Positions 820 through 25,504 of a stretch of 27,463 nucleotides of DNA are shown one piece after another. The stretch spans positions 1 through 27,463 of the IMG/VR virus record IMGVR_UViG_3300037485_001103. One strand, written 5' to 3'. Origin of the DNA: a virus. Position 1 is the first letter of the stretch; each line of letters begins with the position of its first letter. The notes below the pieces were generated by a model. The model was not told the DNA's origin. It saw only the letters and a program-made list of their open reading frames with translations, and ran no database searches. Both the position numbers and the translations under genes were made by a program.

Positions 820-1242
820 ATGGCAGAGGACAAGGCGATGCAACGTCAACCCGACCCGGCGCGATGGGAGGGAGAGGGGAGGCCGCGCAACGACCTGCGC
901 CTCGTGATGGCCGCGATCCGCGCCGGCTGGACCATCGACCCCCTCGTGAAGCAGGCCATCATCGGCCGCGCCTCCCGCATCCTCGCCAACCCGGACGCCA
1001 AGCCCCGAGACGTCGCCCGGGCCTCGAGCACCCTCGTGGCCATCGAGCGCCTAAACCTCGACGCCGCCGTGCAGGAGGACCGCATGGCCCGCCTGGACGC
1101 CGGGGACGCCACCGACCGCGTCGAGCTTGCCCAAGTCGTGACCGACGCCCAGCTGGCCGCTGTGGCCCGCGTGCTGGCCGCCAGCGCCCTCCCTGCCCCA
1201 TGCCCCGAGCCAAGCCCCAAGCCCAAGCGCAAGCGCAAGTGA
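820..1242 (+). CDS. Probable terminase small subunit or terminase-associated protein
   Basis: A 140-residue protein beginning 1 nt after the methyltransferase stop. It is mostly alpha-helical in appearance (RLVMAAIRAGW, then PRDVARASSTLVAIERLNLD) and ends in a Pro/Lys/Arg tail, PSPKPKRKRK. Small proteins of this kind, with a short helical pattern and a basic tail, often lie just upstream of large terminases, where small subunits recognise the packaging site. I see no clear helix-turn-helix, so the assignment rests on position, size and charge. Its stop overlaps the large-terminase frame: the gene ends TGA at 1240-1242, while the terminase starts at ATG 1200 or at the overlapping GTG 1239. This implies translational coupling. 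Confidence 0.55.
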   Translation: MAEDKAMQRQPDPARWEGEGRPRNDLRLVMAAIRAGWTIDPLVKQAIIGRASRILANPDAKPRDVARASSTLVAIERLNLDAAVQEDRMARLDAGDATDRVELAQVVTDAQLAAVARVLAASALPAPCPEPSPKPKRKRK

Positions 1243-2675
1243 CCGCCGAGGCCGCGGTCGAGGCCGCCCGGGAGAACCCGGCCGCCTTCCTCGCCCTGTG
1301 CCTTGGCAGGCCCGTCAGCCGCCTCCAGCAGGAGATGCTGCACCATGCCGTGGCGAACACCTCGTGGTACGCAGAGATCCCCCGCGGTCACGCCAAGACC
1401 TCGACCTTCGCCTACCTCGTCGCGTGGTGGGTGGGCATCCGCCCGGACGCCCGGTTCAAGATCGTTACCCAGACCGATGACCACGCCATCGCCACCACCC
1501 GGTTCATCCGGGACATCATCCGCGGCCCCGTCTTCCGCGCCTGCTTCCCGACCGTGAAGCTGAAGCCCGGGGAGGAAACCGTAAGTGCTTGGAGCGTCAC
1601 GGCTCCCGGCGTCGGCCCCCGCCGCGACCCGACCGTGCAGGCCACGGGCATCTTCGGCCGCACGGGCGGCCGCGCCGACGTGCTGTGGTTTGACGACATC
1701 TGCGACCTGCGGAACAGCGTCCTCCAGCCCGCCCTCCGCGCCCAGGTCAAGGAAGCCTACGCAAACATCTGGCTGCCGATGCTCGACCCCAGCGCCGAGC
1801 ACGAGCCACGCCTGTGGCGCACCGCAACGCCCTTCCACACGGATGACCTGACCGCCGATTGGCGGCGGGAGGCCGAGCCAGCGGGCACCCTTCTTCGTCG
1901 GCCGTGCATGGGCCTGACTAGCCCGTGGCCCGAGGTCTTCACCGCCGACGTCCTCGAGGCGAACCGCAGCGCGATGGGGCCGATGGCCTACGCCCGCGCC
2001 TACGAGCTGGTCCCCCTGTCCAGCGACCTTCTCGTCTTCCGCCCGGAATGGGTGGGGCACTACAAGGTCGGCCAGCAGCCCGAGCTCTGCCGCACGGTCG
2101 CGGCCATCGACTGGGGGTACTCGCGCAAGGCGCAGGACCGGGACGATCCCGACTACTCGGTCTGCCTCATCGGGGAGATCGACGCCGAGCGCAATTGCCG
2201 CCTCACGGACATCCTGCGCGTTCGAGACGCCTTCCCCGTCTTCGCCCGTCAGGCGTCCGACCTCTGCCGCCGGCGCGGGGTCTCCGCCGTCCTCGCCGAG
2301 GCCAACGGCCCCCAGCGCGGCATCTTCGACCAGTTCGCCTCCATGACCAGCCAGCCCATGATCGCGGTGGAGCGCGTGGCCGACAAGCACTTGCGTGCCG
2401 CCGGGGCGCAGCCCTTCGTCCAGGGCGGCAAGCTGCTGTTCCCCACGGACGATGCCGGGAAGGTGCTGCCCGCCTTCCAGCCCGTGCTCGACGAGATGCT
2501 GGCGTTCCCTGCGGGATCGCACGATGACACGGTGGACTGCGTGGTAGACCTATGCGCGGAAGCCGTGCGCGGCACGCTCTCGGCAGCCGACAGGAAAGTA
2601 CCTCGTATCGCCAAGCCCGACGCGATCACCCGCATCTTCGGGCAGCGCGAAGTGAAGCGCCCCTTCTTCAAGTGA
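1200..2675 (+). CDS. Terminase large subunit (DNA packaging ATPase and nuclease)
   Basis: The packaging motor protein cuts concatemeric DNA and drives it into the prohead using ATP. With the ATG at 1200 it is 491 residues. The ATPase domain shows a Walker A-like RGHAKT at about residues 62-67 and a Walker B strand with acidic pair, VLWFDD, at about 161-166. The nuclease domain shows AIDWGYS with Asp304, an AEANG segment, and HDD at 441-443 supplying the distal acidic residues. This is the normal order and size for the family. Start choice is uncertain: ATG 1200 has no clear Shine-Dalgarno, and GTG 1239 overlaps the upstream stop (GTGA). The frame stays open back to base 864, but that part overlaps the upstream gene and is not terminase-like. 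Confidence 0.95.
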   Translation: MPRAKPQAQAQAQVTAEAAVEAARENPAAFLALCLGRPVSRLQQEMLHHAVANTSWYAEIPRGHAKTSTFAYLVAWWVGIRPDARFKIVTQTDDHAIATTRFIRDIIRGPVFRACFPTVKLKPGEETVSAWSVTAPGVGPRRDPTVQATGIFGRTGGRADVLWFDDICDLRNSVLQPALRAQVKEAYANIWLPMLDPSAEHEPRLWRTATPFHTDDLTADWRREAEPAGTLLRRPCMGLTSPWPEVFTADVLEANRSAMGPMAYARAYELVPLSSDLLVFRPEWVGHYKVGQQPELCRTVAAIDWGYSRKAQDRDDPDYSVCLIGEIDAERNCRLTDILRVRDAFPVFARQASDLCRRRGVSAVLAEANGPQRGIFDQFASMTSQPMIAVERVADKHLRAAGAQPFVQGGKLLFPTDDAGKVLPAFQPVLDEMLAFPAGSHDDTVDCVVDLCAEAVRGTLSAADRKVPRIAKPDAITRIFGQREVKRPFFK

Positions 2676-2685
2676 CGGAGCAAGC

Positions 2686-4260
2686 ATGTACGCAGACCCG
2701 ACCCTGATGGACCTCGCAGCCGCCTACGCGAAGCGAAGCAACGGACGAAAGACGAAGCACGCGGTCGCGTGCGACCGCCCTGGCGCGAAGGCGAAGTTTG
2801 TGAAGTGGTTCACTGACCGCACAAAGGAGCTTCTGCGAGAAGCGCCTTACGTCGTGGGAGAGACCAAGAAGATCGCAAAGCAGATCGCCGCTCAGTCTGC
2901 ACAGCTGGAAGCAAAGTTAAATGAGCTGAAGGCAATCAAAGATCCGTCTGCGATGGAGGTGCGCGACCGCATCATTGCGTTGCACAATTCCATGACGGCA
3001 GACATTTCGCAGCTTCAGCGGGCGCTGCCAAACCAGTTCTCCCGCCCCGGCGCGAAGGCGGAGTTTGAGATGTCGGCTAACGAGAAAGCGTCGCTTGCTG
3101 CGCATTTTCGTGCGGTCACGATTCTGTTGAACAAGGCACGCGAAGACCTGTTTGCCGCAGAGAAGTCTGGCGACAACGCCGCGCTTCGCAAGGCGCGAGA
3201 AGAAATCCAGCACTATTCCAAGCAGCGCGAGGATGCAATCGCAATGCTAAAGGCTGCTGGACTGATGTCCCGCCCCGGCGCGAAGGCGAAGATGGGGAGA
3301 ATGTTGCAACCGTATGAGGTAACTGAGTTGCGGGAGTTCCTGGAGTCGTATGGTGTTACAAAGCACGACATCATCAAGAGCATCGGGCAAGTCAAGGTTT
3401 CCAAGTCGCAGGTGGGAAAGGCATTAGATGCCATTGCGGCGCTGAATAGAGAGATTCAAAAGGAAGGCATTGGCGACAAAGTTGTGGTGGATGTTGTGCC
3501 GTTCTCTCGCCCCGGCGCGAAGGCGAAGATGGCTCTCGCCATGAAACTGACGCCCGAGCAGAAGAAGTTCTACTACGAACTCTGGAACTTCTGGACGCCC
3601 GAGCGACAGAAGAATCCGACTGAACACGAGGCAGAACTTCGCGCTCTTGTTCGTCGCGCAAAGTCGATGCCGGATTTTCGCGTGACTGCCGCAGGTCAGC
3701 GGATGCCGAATCTTCATGAACTTGCTGACGAGCAGGAAGATCGAGTGAAGTCTTATTCCTCTCGCACCGGCACAAAGGCGAAGTTTGCCCAGCCTCCCTT
3801 CAGCGCATCCGACCTGAACGCGCTCAAGCGCCTCGTCAAGCAGTACGAGCAGCAGGCGAAGGCGAACAAGGGCAAGCAGGGACCGAACGGTGAAAACCTC
3901 GAGTTCAAGGCCTTGAGCATCGCTGGCTGGATGCAGGAGATGATTAACTACGCGCAGGCAGGGCAGACGGGCCGTGCGTACTCGATTGTGCGGACGTCGA
4001 ATCCGGATTACCTTCGCTTCCTTCCTGCCTCGCTGGTCAAGGCAGCGCAGGACGTGACGAAGATGTCCCGCCCCGGCGCGAAGGCGAAGTCCACCCACGC
4101 CGCGCTCCCCCCGCAGACCCTCGAGGCCGAGCGCAAGCCCGGCGGCGGCTCGCACTCCGAGGCCGTGAGCCGCAAGATCGCCACCCTCATCAACGAGGGC
4201 AAGCCGCAGGACCAGGCAGTCGCCATCGCGCTCGACCTCGAGCGCCGCGGCGAGCTGTGA
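2686..4260 (+). CDS. Repeat-punctuated modular protein with six RPGAKAK motifs, function unknown
   Basis: I do not recognise this 524-residue protein. Six copies of a SRPGAKAKF-like motif sit at residues 31-37, 120-126 (RPGAKAE), 196-202, 275-281, 360-366 (RTGTKAK) and 462-468, spaced 76-102 residues apart. The segments between them are unrelated to each other. Most look helical and charged, the first two coiled-coil-like; the fourth is aromatic-rich around YYELWNFW. The C-terminal ~55 residues (HSEAVSRKIATL, QAVAIALDLERRGEL) resemble short helical domains found in other phage proteins. No signal peptide, membrane segment or catalytic motif is visible. Between the repeats GC is visibly lower than in neighbours: the line 3421-3480 counts about 47%, against about 75% at 7261-7320 in the portal. 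It lies between terminase and portal, outside the usual core set. It could be a virion cargo protein, a processed polyprotein or a recombination-built adaptor. Confidence 0.8.
   Translation: MYADPTLMDLAAAYAKRSNGRKTKHAVACDRPGAKAKFVKWFTDRTKELLREAPYVVGETKKIAKQIAAQSAQLEAKLNELKAIKDPSAMEVRDRIIALHNSMTADISQLQRALPNQFSRPGAKAEFEMSANEKASLAAHFRAVTILLNKAREDLFAAEKSGDNAALRKAREEIQHYSKQREDAIAMLKAAGLMSRPGAKAKMGRMLQPYEVTELREFLESYGVTKHDIIKSIGQVKVSKSQVGKALDAIAALNREIQKEGIGDKVVVDVVPFSRPGAKAKMALAMKLTPEQKKFYYELWNFWTPERQKNPTEHEAELRALVRRAKSMPDFRVTAAGQRMPNLHELADEQEDRVKSYSSRTGTKAKFAQPPFSASDLNALKRLVKQYEQQAKANKGKQGPNGENLEFKALSIAGWMQEMINYAQAGQTGRAYSIVRTSNPDYLRFLPASLVKAAQDVTKMSRPGAKAKSTHAALPPQTLEAERKPGGGSHSEAVSRKIATLINEGKPQDQAVAIALDLERRGEL
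2773..4092 (+). repeat. Six in-frame ~24-27 bp direct repeats encoding (S)RPGAKAK(F/M)
   Basis: Copies begin at 2773, 3040, 3268, 3505, 3760 and 4066. The core cggcgcgaaggcgaag is exact in copies 3, 4 and 6. Copies 1 and 2 differ from the 20-base consensus at one base each, and copy 5 at three. Start-to-start spacings of 267, 228, 237, 255 and 306 bases are all multiples of three, so the frame is kept. The repeats use GC-rich codons (cgc ccc ggc gcg aag) although the modules between them use many A/T-ending codons. I infer either DNA-level copying or recombination, or strong constraint on a basic peptide. Confidence 0.9.
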
Positions 4261-4276
4261 ACCACAGGAGACAGAC

Positions 4277-5527
4277 ATGAGCACCGCAGGACATACGCCC
4301 AACTTCATCGCCGAAGAGGCCATCTACCCGTTCCGCTGCGTGAAGGTCGGAACCCTCCCGTTCAAGGCGGTCCCCTCCACCGCGAACCCGGAGATCCTGC
4401 TCGGCGTGACCGACGGGTCCATCCAGACCTTCAACGGCACCTACCACGCGACTGCCGGCCAGACGATCAGCCTCCAGAACGGCGAGTTCGTCCAGCTGAC
4501 AGCCAGCGGCAGCATCACGGTCGGCGACACGCTGATCGCCACCACGGACGGCAAGGTCGAGGCGAGCGTCAGCGCGACGGAGTACGTCGCCCAGGCGGCG
4601 GAGAACGCGAACGACGGCGAGATCTTCTGGGCGAAGAAGATCGGCGCGTGGACGGTCAGCGGCGGCGGCCCCAGCCCCATCGGCGGCGGCTGGCCTGCGC
4701 CGGAGTCGAAGGCGCTGTGGTCGTGCGAGTTCACGGGCGCGATTCCCGTGTTCGATGCCACCCCCGTCGACCCGGCGTTTCTGCCCGGTCCCGACTTTTA
4801 CTTCCAGCGATCCGACGCAGGCCAAGCGGCGGTTGAGCAGAACTATTTTCCGGTTGCGAGACACTTTGGTGTTGTCGATGTAAGTGTCATTGGCAACGCT
4901 TTCGACCCGCAATGGATCATGGTGGGAAATGCTCCTCCGATTACACCAGCCGACTTTAACGCATCATCCATTGGAGGTCGGCCCGGTGTCGATCTGCGGT
5001 ACGACAACAACGAGTTCGTCGTAATTTGGAAGCCGTATTCGTATTTGAACACCGGATCGGGACTTGACTGGAGGGTCTACGCTGGATGTTTGTCCGCTAG
5101 TCTGTCGTATCCAGATCATCCCATTGATGGTGGTGTCGGCTTCTTCTTCCGCGCATCGCCAGCCAACGCAAACTGGATTTGCGTGGCGCGGTTTTACAAT
5201 GCCACGACATCTTCGTTCATCGAATACACACAGGACAGCGGTGTGCCGATCAACATCGTTTCCCCGGCGTGGAAGAACATGAAGGTCATCACGGTCGAAG
5301 GATCGACGCCGGGTTCGTATCCGACTGTTGAGTGGTACATCGACGGAACGCTGATTCACTCTTTGGATGTCAACACCATTGCCAGCAACATCCGCAGTTC
5401 ACTTGATGCGGAACCGATCTTTGCGATGGCGGGCGCATATGTTGTAAACGACGAAGATGTAAGCCAAGTCTTGGCGAACCAGTTGGACTACATGCACGCC
5501 CTGACCACCTTCACGAACCCGAGGTAA
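4277..5527 (+). CDS. Head-decoration domain fused to a jelly-roll/lectin-like domain
   Basis: A 416-residue protein preceded by a good ribosome site (aggaga). Residues 1-127 clearly match the stand-alone decoration protein encoded at 11191-11583: both share PN-IA...PFR, GVTDGS, GQ/TQISLQ, a -DGK- and a GEIF-A--IG ending. A Gly/Pro linker (GGGPSPIGGG, about residues 129-138) leads to a ~275-residue C-terminal domain. That part is beta-rich and aromatic, with segments such as VGFFFRASPANANWICVARF and TVEWYIDGTLIHSL that recall LamG/concanavalin-like sugar-binding sandwiches. This is a family-level impression, not a match. GC falls and codon use shifts within the gene from about base 4790. The probable role is a capsid surface protein displaying an adhesin. 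It sits before the portal, not beside its paralogue. Confidence 0.75.
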   Translation: MSTAGHTPNFIAEEAIYPFRCVKVGTLPFKAVPSTANPEILLGVTDGSIQTFNGTYHATAGQTISLQNGEFVQLTASGSITVGDTLIATTDGKVEASVSATEYVAQAAENANDGEIFWAKKIGAWTVSGGGPSPIGGGWPAPESKALWSCEFTGAIPVFDATPVDPAFLPGPDFYFQRSDAGQAAVEQNYFPVARHFGVVDVSVIGNAFDPQWIMVGNAPPITPADFNASSIGGRPGVDLRYDNNEFVVIWKPYSYLNTGSGLDWRVYAGCLSASLSYPDHPIDGGVGFFFRASPANANWICVARFYNATTSSFIEYTQDSGVPINIVSPAWKNMKVITVEGSTPGSYPTVEWYIDGTLIHSLDVNTIASNIRSSLDAEPIFAMAGAYVVNDEDVSQVLANQLDYMHALTTFTNPR

Positions 5528-6466: not shown

Positions 6467-6906
6467 TGCGGAGCTGGATCGGACGGATCTCGCGGCCTGC
6501 CCTGCGCCTCGGCGTGGCGGCGATCACGCGTGGCAACCGCAGTTTGGACATCGGCCCGTTTCCGATGGACTGGCCGAACATCAACAGCGAAGCACTGACG
6601 GCAACCACCGACAAGCTTCAGGTCACGTCGATCAACGTGCCCGTGACTTTCACGGCGAACGCACCGACCGGAATGACCGTGATTGCCGTGGTCAACGGCA
6701 GCACGTCCGACACGGGCGCCACGAGCACGCCGATGGGCGCAAGCCCTACACCGTTCACCGTGCCGCCGAACAGCTTCGTCTGGTTTGTCTGCTCGGCCGT
6801 GTCCGCAGCAGGTGGCACCATTACCGTCCGCAACAGCACGGCAGGCAGCGCGGTGGTGGACGCAATCGTGGTCAATCTCGGAGTCGGCCCGCCGCCGGAG
6901 GCATGA
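6466..6906 (+). CDS. Hypothetical small beta-sandwich protein
   Basis: A 146-residue protein coupled by TGATG to the gene before it. The first ~30 residues are basic and hydrophobic (MRSWIGRISRPALRLGVAAITRG). The rest is strand-rich: VPVTFTANAPTGMTVIAVVNG, PNSFVWFVCSAVSAAGG and TITVRNSTAGSAVVDAIVVN. This gives an Ig- or jelly-roll-like impression, with strands separated by Thr/Ser/Gly turns. No catalytic motif is visible. It is the last gene of the island before the portal, whose ATG follows 5 nt after this stop. It may be another displayed or capsid-associated protein; I cannot assign a family. Confidence 0.6.
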   Translation: MRSWIGRISRPALRLGVAAITRGNRSLDIGPFPMDWPNINSEALTATTDKLQVTSINVPVTFTANAPTGMTVIAVVNGSTSDTGATSTPMGASPTPFTVPPNSFVWFVCSAVSAAGGTITVRNSTAGSAVVDAIVVNLGVGPPPEA

Positions 6907-6910
6907 GGTA

Positions 6911-8461
6911 ATGGCGAAGCGTAAGACCACCGCACGGCGCACGGGCCGCAAGGTCACGGCGGGCATCCCCAAGCCCATCGTGAAGCAGCCCATCAGCACC
7001 AACAGCGCGATGAATGCGCTGACGCCGGCCGAGCGCCCCCGCGGCCCGCTGCCGCCTCCGATGGAGCGCGGCATGACCTTCCCGCTCGCCACGAGCGTGG
7101 AGGTCCAGCGGTCGTTCTTCACCACGGCCGACAAGCTGCTGAAGAACAGCAGCCTCGCCTATCGCCTCAACCCGCAGTACCAGATGATGATGCGGGCGGA
7201 CGCCGACATCGAGGGCGTCCTGCGGTCGCTCCAGGTCACGCTGGCCGGCCTCGAGTGGGCGGTCGTCGCCGAGGACGAGAAGGACCCCCGGGCGGTCGAG
7301 CTCGCCGAGCGCGTGGCCAAGGTCTTCGACCGCATGCCCCGCCGAGCCGACTTCGTCCGCTCCATGCACGAGGCGGTCTGGTACGGCAACAGCGCGGCCA
7401 ACATCGTCTACCGCCCGGACGCTTTGACGGGCGTCGCGGTCAAGGAGTGGTTCCCGTTCCACCCCGACACCCTCGCCTACGACCAGCGAGGCAACCTCGC
7501 CATGAAGGTCGGCGTCGAGTACATGAACAACCCCGAGAGCTCGACCAACATCGGCTTCGACGCCCGGGTGCACATCTTCAACGAGGTCGAGCGGGCGGCC
7601 GTGGTCCTGCACCGCGTCTTCGTGGCGGCCCCGGACTTCAACGACCCGAACAGCACCGAGAGCATCTACCGCGGCGTCGGCGCCCGGGACATCTGCTGGT
7701 TCATGTGGCTGGCGAAGCAGGAGATCCTCCAGGACGCCATCACCTACGCCGAGCGGTACGCGATGGGCATTCGCGTCGGCTACTACCCACTCGGCCAAGA
7801 TGCTGGGCAGCAGATGATGGAGCAGGTGCTGGCGAACCTGACGAACGACAACAGCGTCCTGCTGCCGCAGTCGGGCACCGAGAAGATCTACGACATCGAC
7901 ATCAAGGAGCCGAACAGCGGCCGGGCTGCGGTGTTCATGGACCTCGTGAACTGGTTCAGCGCCAAGCTTAAGGAGGCCATCGTCGGGCAGAGCCTGACGA
8001 GCGAGGCGCATGGCACGGGCCTCGGCTCGGGCGTTGCCGACCTGCACGCCGACACGCTGTCCCGGATCATCCGCTACCACGCCGACGCGCTGGCCGACAG
8101 CATGACGAACGACTTCGTCAAGGTCGTGGCCCGCATGATGGGCGCGACGGCCGAGGAGGCCGCCGGCATCCGCTTCGTCTTTGCGCCCGAGCGCCCGGAC
8201 CCGAAGGAGCGACTCGAGGCCATCGAGAAGTTCGTGGCGCTGGGCGGCAAGGTCGCCGAGCGCGAGGTCCGCGACCTGCTGGGCCTGTCCGAGCCGACCG
8301 AGGATGACAAGGTGCTTGGCGGCGAAACGGGCATGGCCGAGCCGGACGCCCTGTCCAGCCTGCTCAAGACGCCGATGCCACCCGAGGAGGGACAGCCGTC
8401 CGAAGGCACACCGCCCGCGGAGGGCGCCCCTCGGGCCTTCAGCCGCCGCTCGTGGTGGTAA
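6911..8461 (+). CDS. Portal protein, Mu gp29-like (DUF935 family)
   Basis: The portal forms the dodecameric ring at the head vertex through which DNA enters and leaves. The start at ATG 6911 has gagg just upstream; the frame is open to 6683 but that part overlaps another gene. The product is 516 residues, close to Mu gp29. Family-like features are the LEWAVVAED segment after DIEGVLRSL, the EILQDAITYAERYAMGIRVGYYP block, and AIVGQSLTSEAHGTGLGSG followed by a helical stretch with HADTLSRIIRYHADAL. This last is the QTLTS-type signature of DUF935 portals. The C-terminus is Pro/Glu-rich and ends RRSWW. GC is high, like the rest of the head block. The MuF gene follows after 3 nt. Confidence 0.92.
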   Translation: MAKRKTTARRTGRKVTAGIPKPIVKQPISTNSAMNALTPAERPRGPLPPPMERGMTFPLATSVEVQRSFFTTADKLLKNSSLAYRLNPQYQMMMRADADIEGVLRSLQVTLAGLEWAVVAEDEKDPRAVELAERVAKVFDRMPRRADFVRSMHEAVWYGNSAANIVYRPDALTGVAVKEWFPFHPDTLAYDQRGNLAMKVGVEYMNNPESSTNIGFDARVHIFNEVERAAVVLHRVFVAAPDFNDPNSTESIYRGVGARDICWFMWLAKQEILQDAITYAERYAMGIRVGYYPLGQDAGQQMMEQVLANLTNDNSVLLPQSGTEKIYDIDIKEPNSGRAAVFMDLVNWFSAKLKEAIVGQSLTSEAHGTGLGSGVADLHADTLSRIIRYHADALADSMTNDFVKVVARMMGATAEEAAGIRFVFAPERPDPKERLEAIEKFVALGGKVAEREVRDLLGLSEPTEDDKVLGGETGMAEPDALSSLLKTPMPPEEGQPSEGTPPAEGAPRAFSRRSWW

Positions 8462-8464
8462 GGC

Positions 8465-9538
8465 ATGGCAAAGGCGGCCGACATCCCCAGTTTGATGCAG
8501 GACGTGCTCCGTGACGGGGCCGACGCCTACCGGGCAGCCATTGCCGCCCAGATCGCCGGGCAGGACGCCAACAAGGCGTGGGACGCATGGGAGCAGGACA
8601 CGGCTGCCCTGCTGCTGGCGTCGTGGGTGGCGGGCGCCGCCGACAGCCTCAAGACCGCCGGCGTGCCATTGGCCGCCCCCAAGCCCGTCCAGTTCGCCGA
8701 GGATGACGCCCTGCTGGACTTCGAGCCAGGGGCCGCCCGGGAAATGATCCGCCGCTGGATGGCGACCGTGCCCCTGACCAAAGCCCGGTGGCAGGACCTG
8801 ATCCGCAAGGCGCTCGAGGCCGCCAATGAGCTGCGCCGGGACGAGCAGCAGACCGCCGTCCAGAAGATGGCCGACCGCAGCCCCCAGTTCCGGGCGCTGG
8901 TCTATCCCGATCAGATCCCTGCGGACGTCCAAGTGCGCCGCACCCCCGGGGTCGGCAAGGCGGCGCAGGAGGCGTTCTTCGTCTCGGGCATGACCCAACG
9001 ACAGACCGAGCAGCTCCGAGACCTCTTGGGAAAAGTAGTGCGCGGGCAGGAGACCCGCGACAAGGCCACCAAGAAGCTGCGGCAGATGGGTCTAGCTGAG
9101 TTCATTGAGCAGGCCGAGGAAGTGCTCAAGGTCGGCGATGACCTGACCGCCGCCCGGCTCGAGACCGTCTACCGGACTAATCTGAACCGGGCTGCCTCGC
9201 AGGGTCGATTGGACGTCTGCCGTGACCCGGTCGCCAAGAAGTTCGTCCCCCTGATGCAGTACCGGGCGACGAAGGACCGCCGAACCCGCGAAACGCACAA
9301 GGCGATGGACGGCTACGTGGCGACCACCGAGATGATCGACGCTATGGGGATCGCCACGCCGGCGGGCTTCCAGTGCCGATGCAGCTGGTCACCCGTGCCC
9401 ATCGCAACCGCCGTCAACCGTGGCTGGTGCGACCGCGACGGCAACCCGAACCTCGATCTGATCCAGCAGCACAACGCGCAGCGGCAGCGCCTCATCGACT
9501 CCGGACAGTTCCCCGACCCAGGCTTCATCGCCGGATGA
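8465..9538 (+). CDS. Minor head protein, Mu gpF / SPP1 gp7-like (MuF domain)
   Basis: A 357-residue head-morphogenesis protein. The N-terminal two thirds are helical with many Ala, Gln and Arg residues. The C-terminal MuF domain shows the usual succession: RLETVYRTNLNRAASQGR, then MQYRATKDRRTRETHKAMDG, then AGFQCRCSWSPVP, with the conserved Cys-x-Cys. In related phages this protein associates with the portal and is packaged in the head or aids prohead assembly. It starts 3 nt after the portal stop with aagg upstream. Its stop overlaps the ATG at 9535 (ATGA), giving the order portal, MuF, protease/scaffold seen in Mu-like and SPP1-like head modules. Confidence 0.9.
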   Translation: MAKAADIPSLMQDVLRDGADAYRAAIAAQIAGQDANKAWDAWEQDTAALLLASWVAGAADSLKTAGVPLAAPKPVQFAEDDALLDFEPGAAREMIRRWMATVPLTKARWQDLIRKALEAANELRRDEQQTAVQKMADRSPQFRALVYPDQIPADVQVRRTPGVGKAAQEAFFVSGMTQRQTEQLRDLLGKVVRGQETRDKATKKLRQMGLAEFIEQAEEVLKVGDDLTAARLETVYRTNLNRAASQGRLDVCRDPVAKKFVPLMQYRATKDRRTRETHKAMDGYVATTEMIDAMGIATPAGFQCRCSWSPVPIATAVNRGWCDRDGNPNLDLIQQHNAQRQRLIDSGQFPDPGFIAG

Positions 9539-11190: not shown

Positions 11191-11583
11191 ATGGCAGACT
11201 TCGGTTTCATCCCCAACCTCATCGCGGGCGGCAACATCAACCCGTTCCGCTTCGTTGAGATCTCGACCAGCGCGGCCTTCACGGGCACGCAGGCGAACGC
11301 CGCGTCCGACAACATCGTCGGCGTGACGGACGGCTCGGTCTACAAGTTCGACGCCAGCCTGAACGCCGTCGCCGGCACGCAGATCAGCCTCCAGCCGACC
11401 AACACCGTGCAGGTCGAGGCCGCGACTGGTGGCGTCACCATCGGTTGCTACCTGACGTCGGACGCTGACGGCAAGGCCCTCAAGACCACGACCTCTGGGC
11501 AGGTCGCTTACTACATCGCCCTCGAGGCGGCAAACGCGGGCGAGATCTTCCGCGCTTTCCGCATCGGCCCGCGCACCCTCTGA
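11191..11583 (+). CDS. Head decoration protein
   Basis: A 130-residue protein just upstream of the major capsid gene, preceded by aaggaaggac. It is beta-rich with Gly/Thr/Ala turns. Features are PNLIAGGNINPFRFVEI, GVTDGS, a TQISLQ strand, TIGCYLTSDADGK and an AGEIFRAFRIG ending. Size, fold impression and position between scaffold and capsid genes match phage capsid-stabilising decoration proteins (DUF2190-like). The same domain recurs at the N-terminus of the fusion encoded at 4277-5527, so the genome holds two paralogues, one plain and one with an added C-terminal domain. Confidence 0.75.
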   Translation: MADFGFIPNLIAGGNINPFRFVEISTSAAFTGTQANAASDNIVGVTDGSVYKFDASLNAVAGTQISLQPTNTVQVEAATGGVTIGCYLTSDADGKALKTTTSGQVAYYIALEAANAGEIFRAFRIGPRTL

Positions 11584-24087: not shown

Positions 24088-24602
24088 TCCGGTGGCTTGC
24101 GACCGTCCTGCTCACGCTGGCGGCCGCAGGATGCAGCCCCTCGGCGGAGATCGCCATGCGGGCGAACCGCATCGCTGACCGCGCCCGGGAGGACGCGGCG
24201 GCCTGGACCCGTGCGGAGACGGCGCACCCGGACCTGCGCGGCGAGGCCGACGCCGGGCGCAAGCGGGCGGACGCCGACATCAAGGACGCCTTCGGAGTGA
24301 CGGTGGCCCTGACTGGGGTGGAGGACCAAGTGCCGTGGTGGGCAAGCCTGCTCGGCTGGCTCGCGGCGGCCGTCGGCGCCGTCTGCGTCGTGGTCATCCT
24401 GTGGCAGACCGGGCTTGGCACGGCGATCCGCGTGGCAATAGGGTGGCTGCCCCGGCGCAAGGTGCAGGAGGCCGACCTCGCGGTCGCCATGCTCGACGGG
24501 GACAAGGCCGAGGGACCGCGGGAGTTCGTGGCGGCAAAGCGGGCGGCCGACCCCGTGTTCGACGCCTGCTTCCGCAAGGCGCAGGAGAAGGGGAAGCCAT
24601 GA
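24084..24602 (+). CDS. Membrane lipoprotein with a second membrane segment, possible spanin-like protein
   Basis: A 172-residue protein. The N-terminus MIRWLATVLLTLAAAGC is a lipoprotein signal with lipobox LAAAGC, so Cys17 would be lipidated. Residues about 18-80 are charged and helical, Ala/Arg/Asp-rich. Residues 85-107 (WWASLLGWLAAAVGAVCVVVILW) form a clear membrane segment. The C-terminal ~60 residues are charged and probably cytoplasmic. A lipidated N-terminus together with an internal membrane helix is uncommon for ordinary phage lipoproteins. Proximity to the holin-like gene suggests a lysis role, for example a spanin-type function, but exclusion or other envelope roles are possible. 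It is coupled by ATGA to both neighbours. Confidence 0.65.
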   Translation: MIRWLATVLLTLAAAGCSPSAEIAMRANRIADRAREDAAAWTRAETAHPDLRGEADAGRKRADADIKDAFGVTVALTGVEDQVPWWASLLGWLAAAVGAVCVVVILWQTGLGTAIRVAIGWLPRRKVQEADLAVAMLDGDKAEGPREFVAAKRAADPVFDACFRKAQEKGKP

Positions 24603-25504
24603 AGAACTTCCGGGTGATTTCGCACGCCCGCAACGTGCATACGGTCGAGCTGCTGGGCGGCAGCAAAACCGACGAGTGGAGCTTCTTGCTTCGAGGGGAC
24701 GCTCACCATGACAACCCACACAGCCTGCACGATTTAGAGCGCAAGCACCTCGAGGAGTGCAGGGCCGCTGGCGGGGGCTGGATCGACGTGGGCGACCTCT
24801 TCTGCGCCATGCAGGGCAAGTACGACCCGCGCCGGGCGCGGCAGTCTGTGCGCGACGAGGACGCGATGGCGGCCGACTACCTTGACTCGCTGGTGCGGAA
24901 CGCGGCCACGTTCTACAACCCCTACGCCGAGAACTGCGTCCTGATTGGCCGCGGCAACCACGAAACGGCCATCTTGAAGAACTGCGAGACCGACCTGACC
25001 GAGCGGCTCTGCGAGCGCATGAGCCAAGCGACCGGACACAAAGTGCACTCGGGCGGCTACGGTGGCTGGATCAGGTTCGTCGCCAAGTGCCACCAGCAAC
25101 AGTACACCCTGCTGCTCAAGTACTTCCACGGCTCGGGCGGCGCGGCCCTGATGTCGTTCGACACCCTCAAGGTGCGCCGGGCGGCCGCCGTGACCCCTGA
25201 CGCCGACGTGGTCGTGAGCGGGCACGTGCACAAGCAGTGGGTGATGCCGCTGGCCCGGGAGCGCCTAATCCTGAACAAGGAAGGCGCCCGGGTGGTTTCC
25301 GACGTGCAGTGGCACGTCCGGACGGGGACCTACAAGGACGAGTTCGATGACGGCTTTGCAGGGTTCCACGTGGAACAGGGGCGCACCCCAGAGATGATGG
25401 GAGCGGTCTGGATGAAGCTGCACTTCCGGTCTAGGCGGGTGCAGAACGAGGGGCGAAAGAACAGTCTCTACGAGCTGGTGCCGGAGTTCCGGCTTGCACA
25501 CTAG
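24599..25504 (+). CDS. Calcineurin-like metallophosphoesterase
   Basis: A 301-residue enzyme starting at the ATGA overlap with the lipoprotein gene. It has the full set of metal-binding motifs of the family: GDAHHD (Asp34, His36), GD at about 65-66 (DVGDLF), GRGNHE at about 117-122 (Asn120, His121), His177 in KYFHG, and GHVH at about 208-211. Such enzymes coordinate two metal ions and cut phosphomono- or phosphodiester bonds. The substrate could be nucleic acid, nucleotide or a cell-wall phosphate; it cannot be read from sequence. The DLFCAMQGKYDPR and DLTERLCERM segments recall related phage-encoded enzymes. Its placement among membrane and possible lysis genes, not among replication genes, is unusual. 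Confidence 0.85.
   Translation: MKNFRVISHARNVHTVELLGGSKTDEWSFLLRGDAHHDNPHSLHDLERKHLEECRAAGGGWIDVGDLFCAMQGKYDPRRARQSVRDEDAMAADYLDSLVRNAATFYNPYAENCVLIGRGNHETAILKNCETDLTERLCERMSQATGHKVHSGGYGGWIRFVAKCHQQQYTLLLKYFHGSGGAALMSFDTLKVRRAAAVTPDADVVVSGHVHKQWVMPLARERLILNKEGARVVSDVQWHVRTGTYKDEFDDGFAGFHVEQGRTPEMMGAVWMKLHFRSRRVQNEGRKNSLYELVPEFRLAH

Follow-up and report, generated by a model that had tools for sequence, protein, structure and literature searches.

Structure of the cassette-array gene

The DNA analyzed here (the window, i.e., the whole stretch of 27,463 nucleotides of the IMG/VR record IMGVR_UViG_3300037485_001103) carries an open reading frame (ORF) for a protein of 524 amino acids at 2686..4260, on the + strand like its parts and the TerL, portal, and MuF genes located below, between the genes for the terminase large subunit (TerL) and a cement-like protein. 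Homologous arrays are present in many contigs. The gene begins with a constant leader of 29 amino acids (MYADPTLMDLAAAYAKRSNGRKTKHAVAC, 2686..2772), whose DNA is near-identical in the empty orthologue of locus L216, followed by six linker copies and five modules in alternation. Linker copy 1 (DRPGAKAK, 2773..2796) precedes module 1 (81 amino acids, 2797..3039), which has no homologue among the loci fetched. Copy 2 (SRPGAKAE, 3040..3063) and module 2 (68 amino acids, 3064..3267; L160 homologue, 43%) come next, followed by copy 3 (SRPGAKAK, 3268..3291) and module 3 of family F54 (71 amino acids, 3292..3504), which has homologues with differing neighbors in L072 (77%) and L168 (75%). Copy 4 (SRPGAKAK, 3505..3528) leads to module 4 of family F94 (77 amino acids, 3529..3759), copy 5 (SRTGTKAK, 3760..3783) to module 5 of family F55 (94 amino acids, 3784..4065; homologues in L088, L167, and L007, 62 to 65%), and copy 6 (SRPGAKAK, 4066..4089) to a constant C-terminal domain of 56 amino acids (...KIATLINEGKPQDQAVAIALDLERRGEL, 4090..4257). 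This domain matches the phrog_2423 profile with residues 488 to 521 (E = 9.5e-9) and has 67 members in the array set. The first-pass annotation had described six near-identical in-frame repeats that separate five dissimilar modules and a C-terminal domain, and this layout was confirmed.

The linker consensus in the window is the 24-mer TCCCGCCCCGGCGCGAAGGCGAAG, encoding SRPGAKAK and present as six in-frame direct copies, with 0.00 matches expected by chance in dinucleotide-preserving shuffles. Copies 3 and 6 carry the canonical 24-mer and are the same over all 24 nt, copy 4 deviates only at the wobble base of its serine codon (TCT), and copy 5 is the most diverged of the six. The GC content at third codon positions is 0.60 to 0.68 in modules 1 to 4, 0.82 in module 5, and 0.83 to 0.98 in the leader, the C-terminal domain, and the TerL and portal genes. 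Methionine precedes copies 3 and 6, as had been noted, and also follows copies 3 and 4. Internal translation starts at the linker ATGs, where AAGGCGAAG-ATG is weakly Shine-Dalgarno-like, are not supported, since modules starting with phenylalanine are nearly as many and both kinds of start occur in 13 of 45 families.

Gene neighborhood and the empty form of the array

The gene for TerL (864..2675; phrog_38, E = 7e-58; true start within the ORF) forms the upstream border of the slot that holds the array, and the gene for a Mu-type portal protein (6683..8461; PF06074, E = 6e-47) forms its downstream border. The portal gene is followed by a gene for a MuF-like head protein (8465..9538; PF04233, E = 5e-14). 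In all, the neighbors in the window comprise a methyltransferase, TerL, the cement-like protein, the Mu-type portal, MuF, a second phrog_673 protein, and the major head protein. Wherever the neighbors of an array gene were readable in related contigs, the gene belonged to the head cluster. It occupied the interval from TerL to portal or followed immediately downstream of MuF, and some genomes have arrays at both positions.

The closest relative of the window is L216 (portal 88%). Its array gene is empty: leader, single linker, and C-terminal domain together encode about 91 amino acids. At the DNA level, the leader region is ~94% and the C-terminal domain ~98% identical to the window, and in this comparison the five modules of the window sit exactly between the first and the last linker. 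Among 60 loci that were chosen by their portal and contain the whole TerL-portal interval, 49 carry an array, 5 the single-linker form (truly empty in three, L216, L253, and L255), and 6 a slot without an array, two of which (L100 and L286) harbor an array elsewhere. At the limits used, a search of 50,697 phage records yielded no cultured relatives of the array gene, its C-terminal domain, or the portal.

Several further features of the head clusters were observed. The two phrog_673/cement-like proteins of the window are encoded at 4277-5527 and 11191-11583, the first with a long additional C-terminal part, and in L216 a different gene comes after the array gene, at the place of 4277-5527. Arrays may be split over two adjacent or overlapping ORFs, as in L139 (2398 and 3028) and L171 (2841-3911 and 3901-4467), where a linker lies near the start of the second ORF. 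The contig L171 (OMJK01000020.1), listed under a Nitrospiraceae genome, is a fragment with phage head genes, and its link to this host is putative. Many array proteins have an N-terminal domain (GLELRxKHGRGGT...LLWGGD) that is also found at the start of the ORF in the scaffold/protease position; in cultured phages, it is located in head clusters. In L171, a portal protein (17-1795) has this N-terminal domain and, at its C terminus, a phrog_2423-like domain, which suggests that both domains may act in head assembly. The VGGGLST pair mentioned in the first-pass annotation exists at about 10444 (VGGGLSTFVPGT, in the ORF that occupies the scaffold/protease position) and 11629 (VGGGLSTYVPST, shortly after the start of the major head protein). 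Both genes have this peptide in common, as do the corresponding genes of L171 (VGGGLNTFIPSG and IGGGLNTFVPTF), and it may serve in capsid-scaffold interaction or in processing.

Conservation of the linker at the DNA level

The linker recurs in more than 100 viral contigs. An exact 18-mer scan of IMG/VR matched at least 120 stretches, the pattern TCN CGN CCN GGN GCN AAR GCN AAR, which covers 16,384 codings, matched 115 stretches in total, and the pattern TCCCGCYYCGGCAAGCCSGA matched 2 contigs only. The linker as an element of cellular genomes was rejected, as a genome collection contained only two exact 21-mer matches, one in the phage contig filed under Nitrospiraceae and one in an unrelated protease-like gene.

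Only 21 of the 16,384 codings are used by SRPGAKAK copies with distinct context in the fetched loci, and a single 24-mer accounts for 129 of these 161 copies. From module codon usage, the product of the eight codon frequencies predicts this dominant coding in ~0.1% of copies. One coding also prevails (43 of 56 SRPGAKAK copies) in the sample for which portal homology, rather than the repeat, guided the choice. Where homologous modules share less than 50% amino acid identity, the same codon is used at 45% of identical residues (40% for S, R, P, G, A, and K), whereas the linkers flanking them share 90% of their codons, hardly dependent on module divergence. For modules below 90% identity overall, codon identity ranges from 0.89 to 0.94 in linkers versus 0.40 to 0.59 for the same residues in modules. 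Synonymous sites are thus almost invariant, which bears out the earlier claim that linker DNA is more alike than the peptide requires.

An alternative is that the peptide itself does the work, be it as a cleavage site in a polyprotein cut by the head protease, as a docking tag, or as a basic nucleic-acid-binding motif, and that shuffling is a by-product. The strong conservation of the core residues R, P, G, and K and the proximity of the gene to the scaffold/protease gene would fit, but selection on the peptide leaves the near-invariant synonymous sites unexplained. Furthermore, related phages possess a second gene, which has a leader ending in FYFGKxGQPERF, SRPGQPERF as its linker, and a constant C-terminal domain different from the first, and 32 of its 62 modules have homologues in the SRPGAKAK pool, matching 18 families. 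The SRPGQPERF linker is near-invariant in its DNA, too (Q = CAG and E = GAG in 43 of 43), and the two linker classes have only their first 12 nt in common. L217 uses lineage-specific linkers (SRTGAKAA and similar) that are again alike at the DNA level. Relatives of the same modules are thus connected by a second linker class, which makes the AKAK peptide with its basic residues dispensable. By these sequence comparisons, the peptide is exchangeable and the DNA address class-specific, and no other observation speaks more strongly against a peptide tag. The synonymous invariance together with the QPERF class led us to reject a tag as the only cause; the proposal of a basic cleavage, docking, or nucleic-acid tag is weakened accordingly, and we consider it improbable.

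Exchange of modules between arrays

After collapsing identical genes (170 to 144), the 144 unique array genes contained 625 modules, which were clustered with two-sided coverage into 243 families. All 45 recurrent families (at least 3 internal members) have at least two different neighbor families on a side. High-identity DNA matches between genes end inside linkers in 61% of cases compared to 10% for random positions. Flanks (up to 1.5 kb) with an identity of 95% or more on both sides were seen in 94 cross-locus pairs. The internal order agrees in 6 of these pairs, and in 55 the two arrays have no internal module in common; the share of differing arrays is somewhat overstated because identical genes were collapsed and the pairs are non-independent. 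In one flank group, 11 genes represent 11 arrays with 22 internal families.

Single events are visible as well. The array genes of L081 and L118 are 100% identical over their shared part except for one unit of 294 nt, consisting of a module and a linker, and the breakpoints of this insertion lie within a linker. Module 4 of the window is 99.6% identical at the DNA level (230 of 231 nt) to a module of L168, where it lies upstream of the module 3 homologue, i.e., in the opposite order. The gain, swap, and loss of modules through the repeats that the first-pass annotation had proposed is therefore supported by near-identical phages with unlike arrays, the one-unit insertion, the empty orthologue, the reversed module pair, and the excess of match ends in repeats. 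The refuting case of orthologues with the same module order and wobble-diverged repeats was looked for, and the outcome was the opposite.

As all datasets consist of assembled contigs, unrelated pieces might have been fused at the repeats during metagenomic assembly. However, the same multi-module arrays were assembled from more than one metagenome (contigs L056 and L067), the modules remain in frame, and final-assembly k-mers are usually longer than a 24-nt repeat, so that we regard an artefact as highly improbable. Read from sequence, the array is a fixed leader, 0 to 9 interchangeable modules (mostly of 55 to 130 amino acids), and a fixed C-terminal domain, with linkers of ~24 nt in between, and the recombination reading is strongly supported. 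We are nearly certain that the sequences reflect unit-wise gain, loss, exchange, and reordering of modules with breakpoints in the linkers, near-invariant linker DNA, an empty form, and slots in the head cluster.

Mechanism of exchange

The best reading of these data is an intragenic cassette array that is diversified through short-homology annealing, and we assign this explanation as a whole a probability of roughly 0.7. ERF/RecT-type single-strand annealing would probably take place between linkers of co-infecting phages or of concatemers. Among 30 long, partial records, 19 encode ERF and 2 more RecT, and ERF was present in 14 of 19 portal-chosen records (partial), including that of L216. 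ERF was not found in the 27-kb window fragment. A possible DNA repair exonuclease is encoded at 24335-25504 (phrog_7339, E = 1e-9) and is a candidate partner for an annealase encoded beyond the fragment; YqaJ exonuclease was not detected over the cut-off in the records searched. The minimal pairing length is 23 to 27 bp for Red-beta and 31 to 34 for RecA (PMC3945230), which puts a linker of 24 nt near the lower limit for an annealase. An exact shared run of at least 23 nt exists in just 14% of linker pairs, diverged linkers counted, and many junctions may therefore be old or need mismatch tolerance. Overall, the annealase step is well supported.

The linker invariance could itself be explained by survivorship. 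A linker that has drifted below the pairing length would stop recombining, and the module behind it would stop spreading. Mobile modules would then be found with the canonical linker because drifted linkers no longer move.

A short near-invariant DNA element at each junction, together with fixed ends and variable cassettes, could also point to site-specific recombination, in which an integrase, resolvase, or similar enzyme, possibly one encoded by the host or of a novel type, recognizes the linker in the manner of integrons or shufflons. Against this, none of 29 array-group records contains a tyrosine recombinase/integrase (IntI type) over the cut-off, and serine recombinases/resolvases (PF00239) were absent over the cut-off from 30 records including the window. 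The only integrase over the cut-off belongs to L030, in which no array gene was found. The repeats are direct, and the two linker classes are alike in their first 12 nt only. We therefore judge a dedicated recombinase unlikely to drive the exchange. Reverse transcriptases as in diversity-generating retroelements were likewise not detected over the cut-off (0 of 30 records).

Putative role of the array product

Judged from gene context, the array product would probably associate with the head and act as a carrier for small accessory domains. Leader and C-terminal domain might target the protein into the prohead, with the modules as accessory or effector domains carried by the virion, a proposal to which we give slightly less than even odds. 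The modules would then probably be delivered together with the DNA, and their fast turnover would answer varying hosts. Delivery as effectors is plausible because of the head-cluster position, the constant ends around dispensable modules, and stand-alone relatives of modules, with the cargo step as a reasoned guess. The suggestion in the first-pass annotation that cargo proteins are involved agrees with the location in the head cluster, with carriage in the virion as a putative function.

The further idea that modules were once separate ORFs holds in part, for at least two families that stand alone in cultured phages: within runs of accessory genes, F14 is encoded as a small protein by itself in Agrobacterium phage Milano and in Rhizobium phages, and F8 likewise in Rhodobacter phage RcPutin. 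Pfam, PHROGs, and PADLOC assigned the modules to no convincing or informative family, and no toxin families were present among the modules scanned. Structural models of an F1 module (pLDDT 80) and an F14 module (pLDDT 87) gave no significant match and no match in the PDB, respectively, and the latter matched only uncharacterized phage proteins. A short domain, DACWxGYEAVGTKxKDGKxVPNCVP, was observed in module family F70 of L033, at many array C termini, and in hypothetical cyanophage proteins.

Alternatively, the product could belong to the head structure itself, as core, scaffold, or decoration, and the modules would not be effectors but neutral variation in its length or surface. The constant ends, the head-cluster position, and the domain in common with the ORF at the scaffold/protease position agree with this; on the other hand, the modules are mutually unrelated, number 0 to 9 per array, and are wholly dispensable, and two module families are free-standing in accessory regions of other phages. 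We consider a purely structural role unlikely, though less so than a peptide tag or a site-specific recombinase.

Comparison with known systems and significance

PeSLs, the mobile regulatory cassettes of T4-type phages, use short repeated DNA as a homology address for shuffling and are intergenic with promoters; the array linker is likewise a repeated shuffling address but coding and intragenic. In integron arrays, the ends are fixed and the cassettes vary, each cassette being a gene that carries the common recombination element. The arrays described here resemble them in their ends and cassettes, but no integrase was found and the cassettes are domains of one protein. Shufflon and invertase systems act on inverted repeats, whereas the array repeats are direct and PF00239 is missing over the cut-off (30 records). 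In MuF polymorphic toxins, the toxin domain is fused to MuF, which is a separate ORF in the array phages.

Mosaicism through annealases (Red-beta, RecT, and Erf) is alike in its relaxed short-homology exchange, and ERF or RecT is encoded in most long records here, with borders at short shared homology (PMC3945230, PMC2327257). There, however, borders fall wherever genomes happen to be similar, whereas the arrays have a dedicated in-frame, DNA-invariant coding linker that recurs within a single gene and delimits the units of exchange. A general survey of domain mosaicism (PMC10684548) similarly reports ongoing exchange of protein fragments between phages, yet without a dedicated exchange element; the terms "linker" and "direct repeat" are absent from its text. 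The T4 internal head proteins bear a capsid targeting sequence, and one of them, IPI, is ejected and counters restriction; in P1 DarB, the first 30 residues direct targeting (PMC9026906, PMC9024508). As in these T4 internal head proteins and P1 Dar proteins, where head-related genes encode a short N-terminal leader before variable small proteins, the array gene lies among head genes and specifies a short constant leader, with a putative place of the product in the virion. In contrast, its units are concatenated in one ORF with a constant C-terminal domain, and the likeness lies in gene layout.

In the open-access literature, we found no earlier account of cassettes that are arrayed in frame inside one gene and joined by an invariant coding linker. 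All ingredients have precedents, the swapping of genes and domains by phages being known, and as far as open-access papers show, their combination as an exchange address is apparently new. Tentatively, the arrays may be a dedicated viral diversification system, in which the head would carry a reprogrammable chain of effector domains that is delivered at infection and reshuffled between co-infecting phages. Annealing would occur at protein-coding DNA addresses, with SRPGAKAK, SRPGQPERF, and SRTGAKA as separate address classes that draw on one module pool. The array explains the conservation of a protein linker at the DNA level and offers a natural, countable case of protein evolution resembling exon shuffling without introns. 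Furthermore, it provides ~240 families of small phage domains with boundaries already delimited, some of which may be anti-defense or host-takeover proteins.
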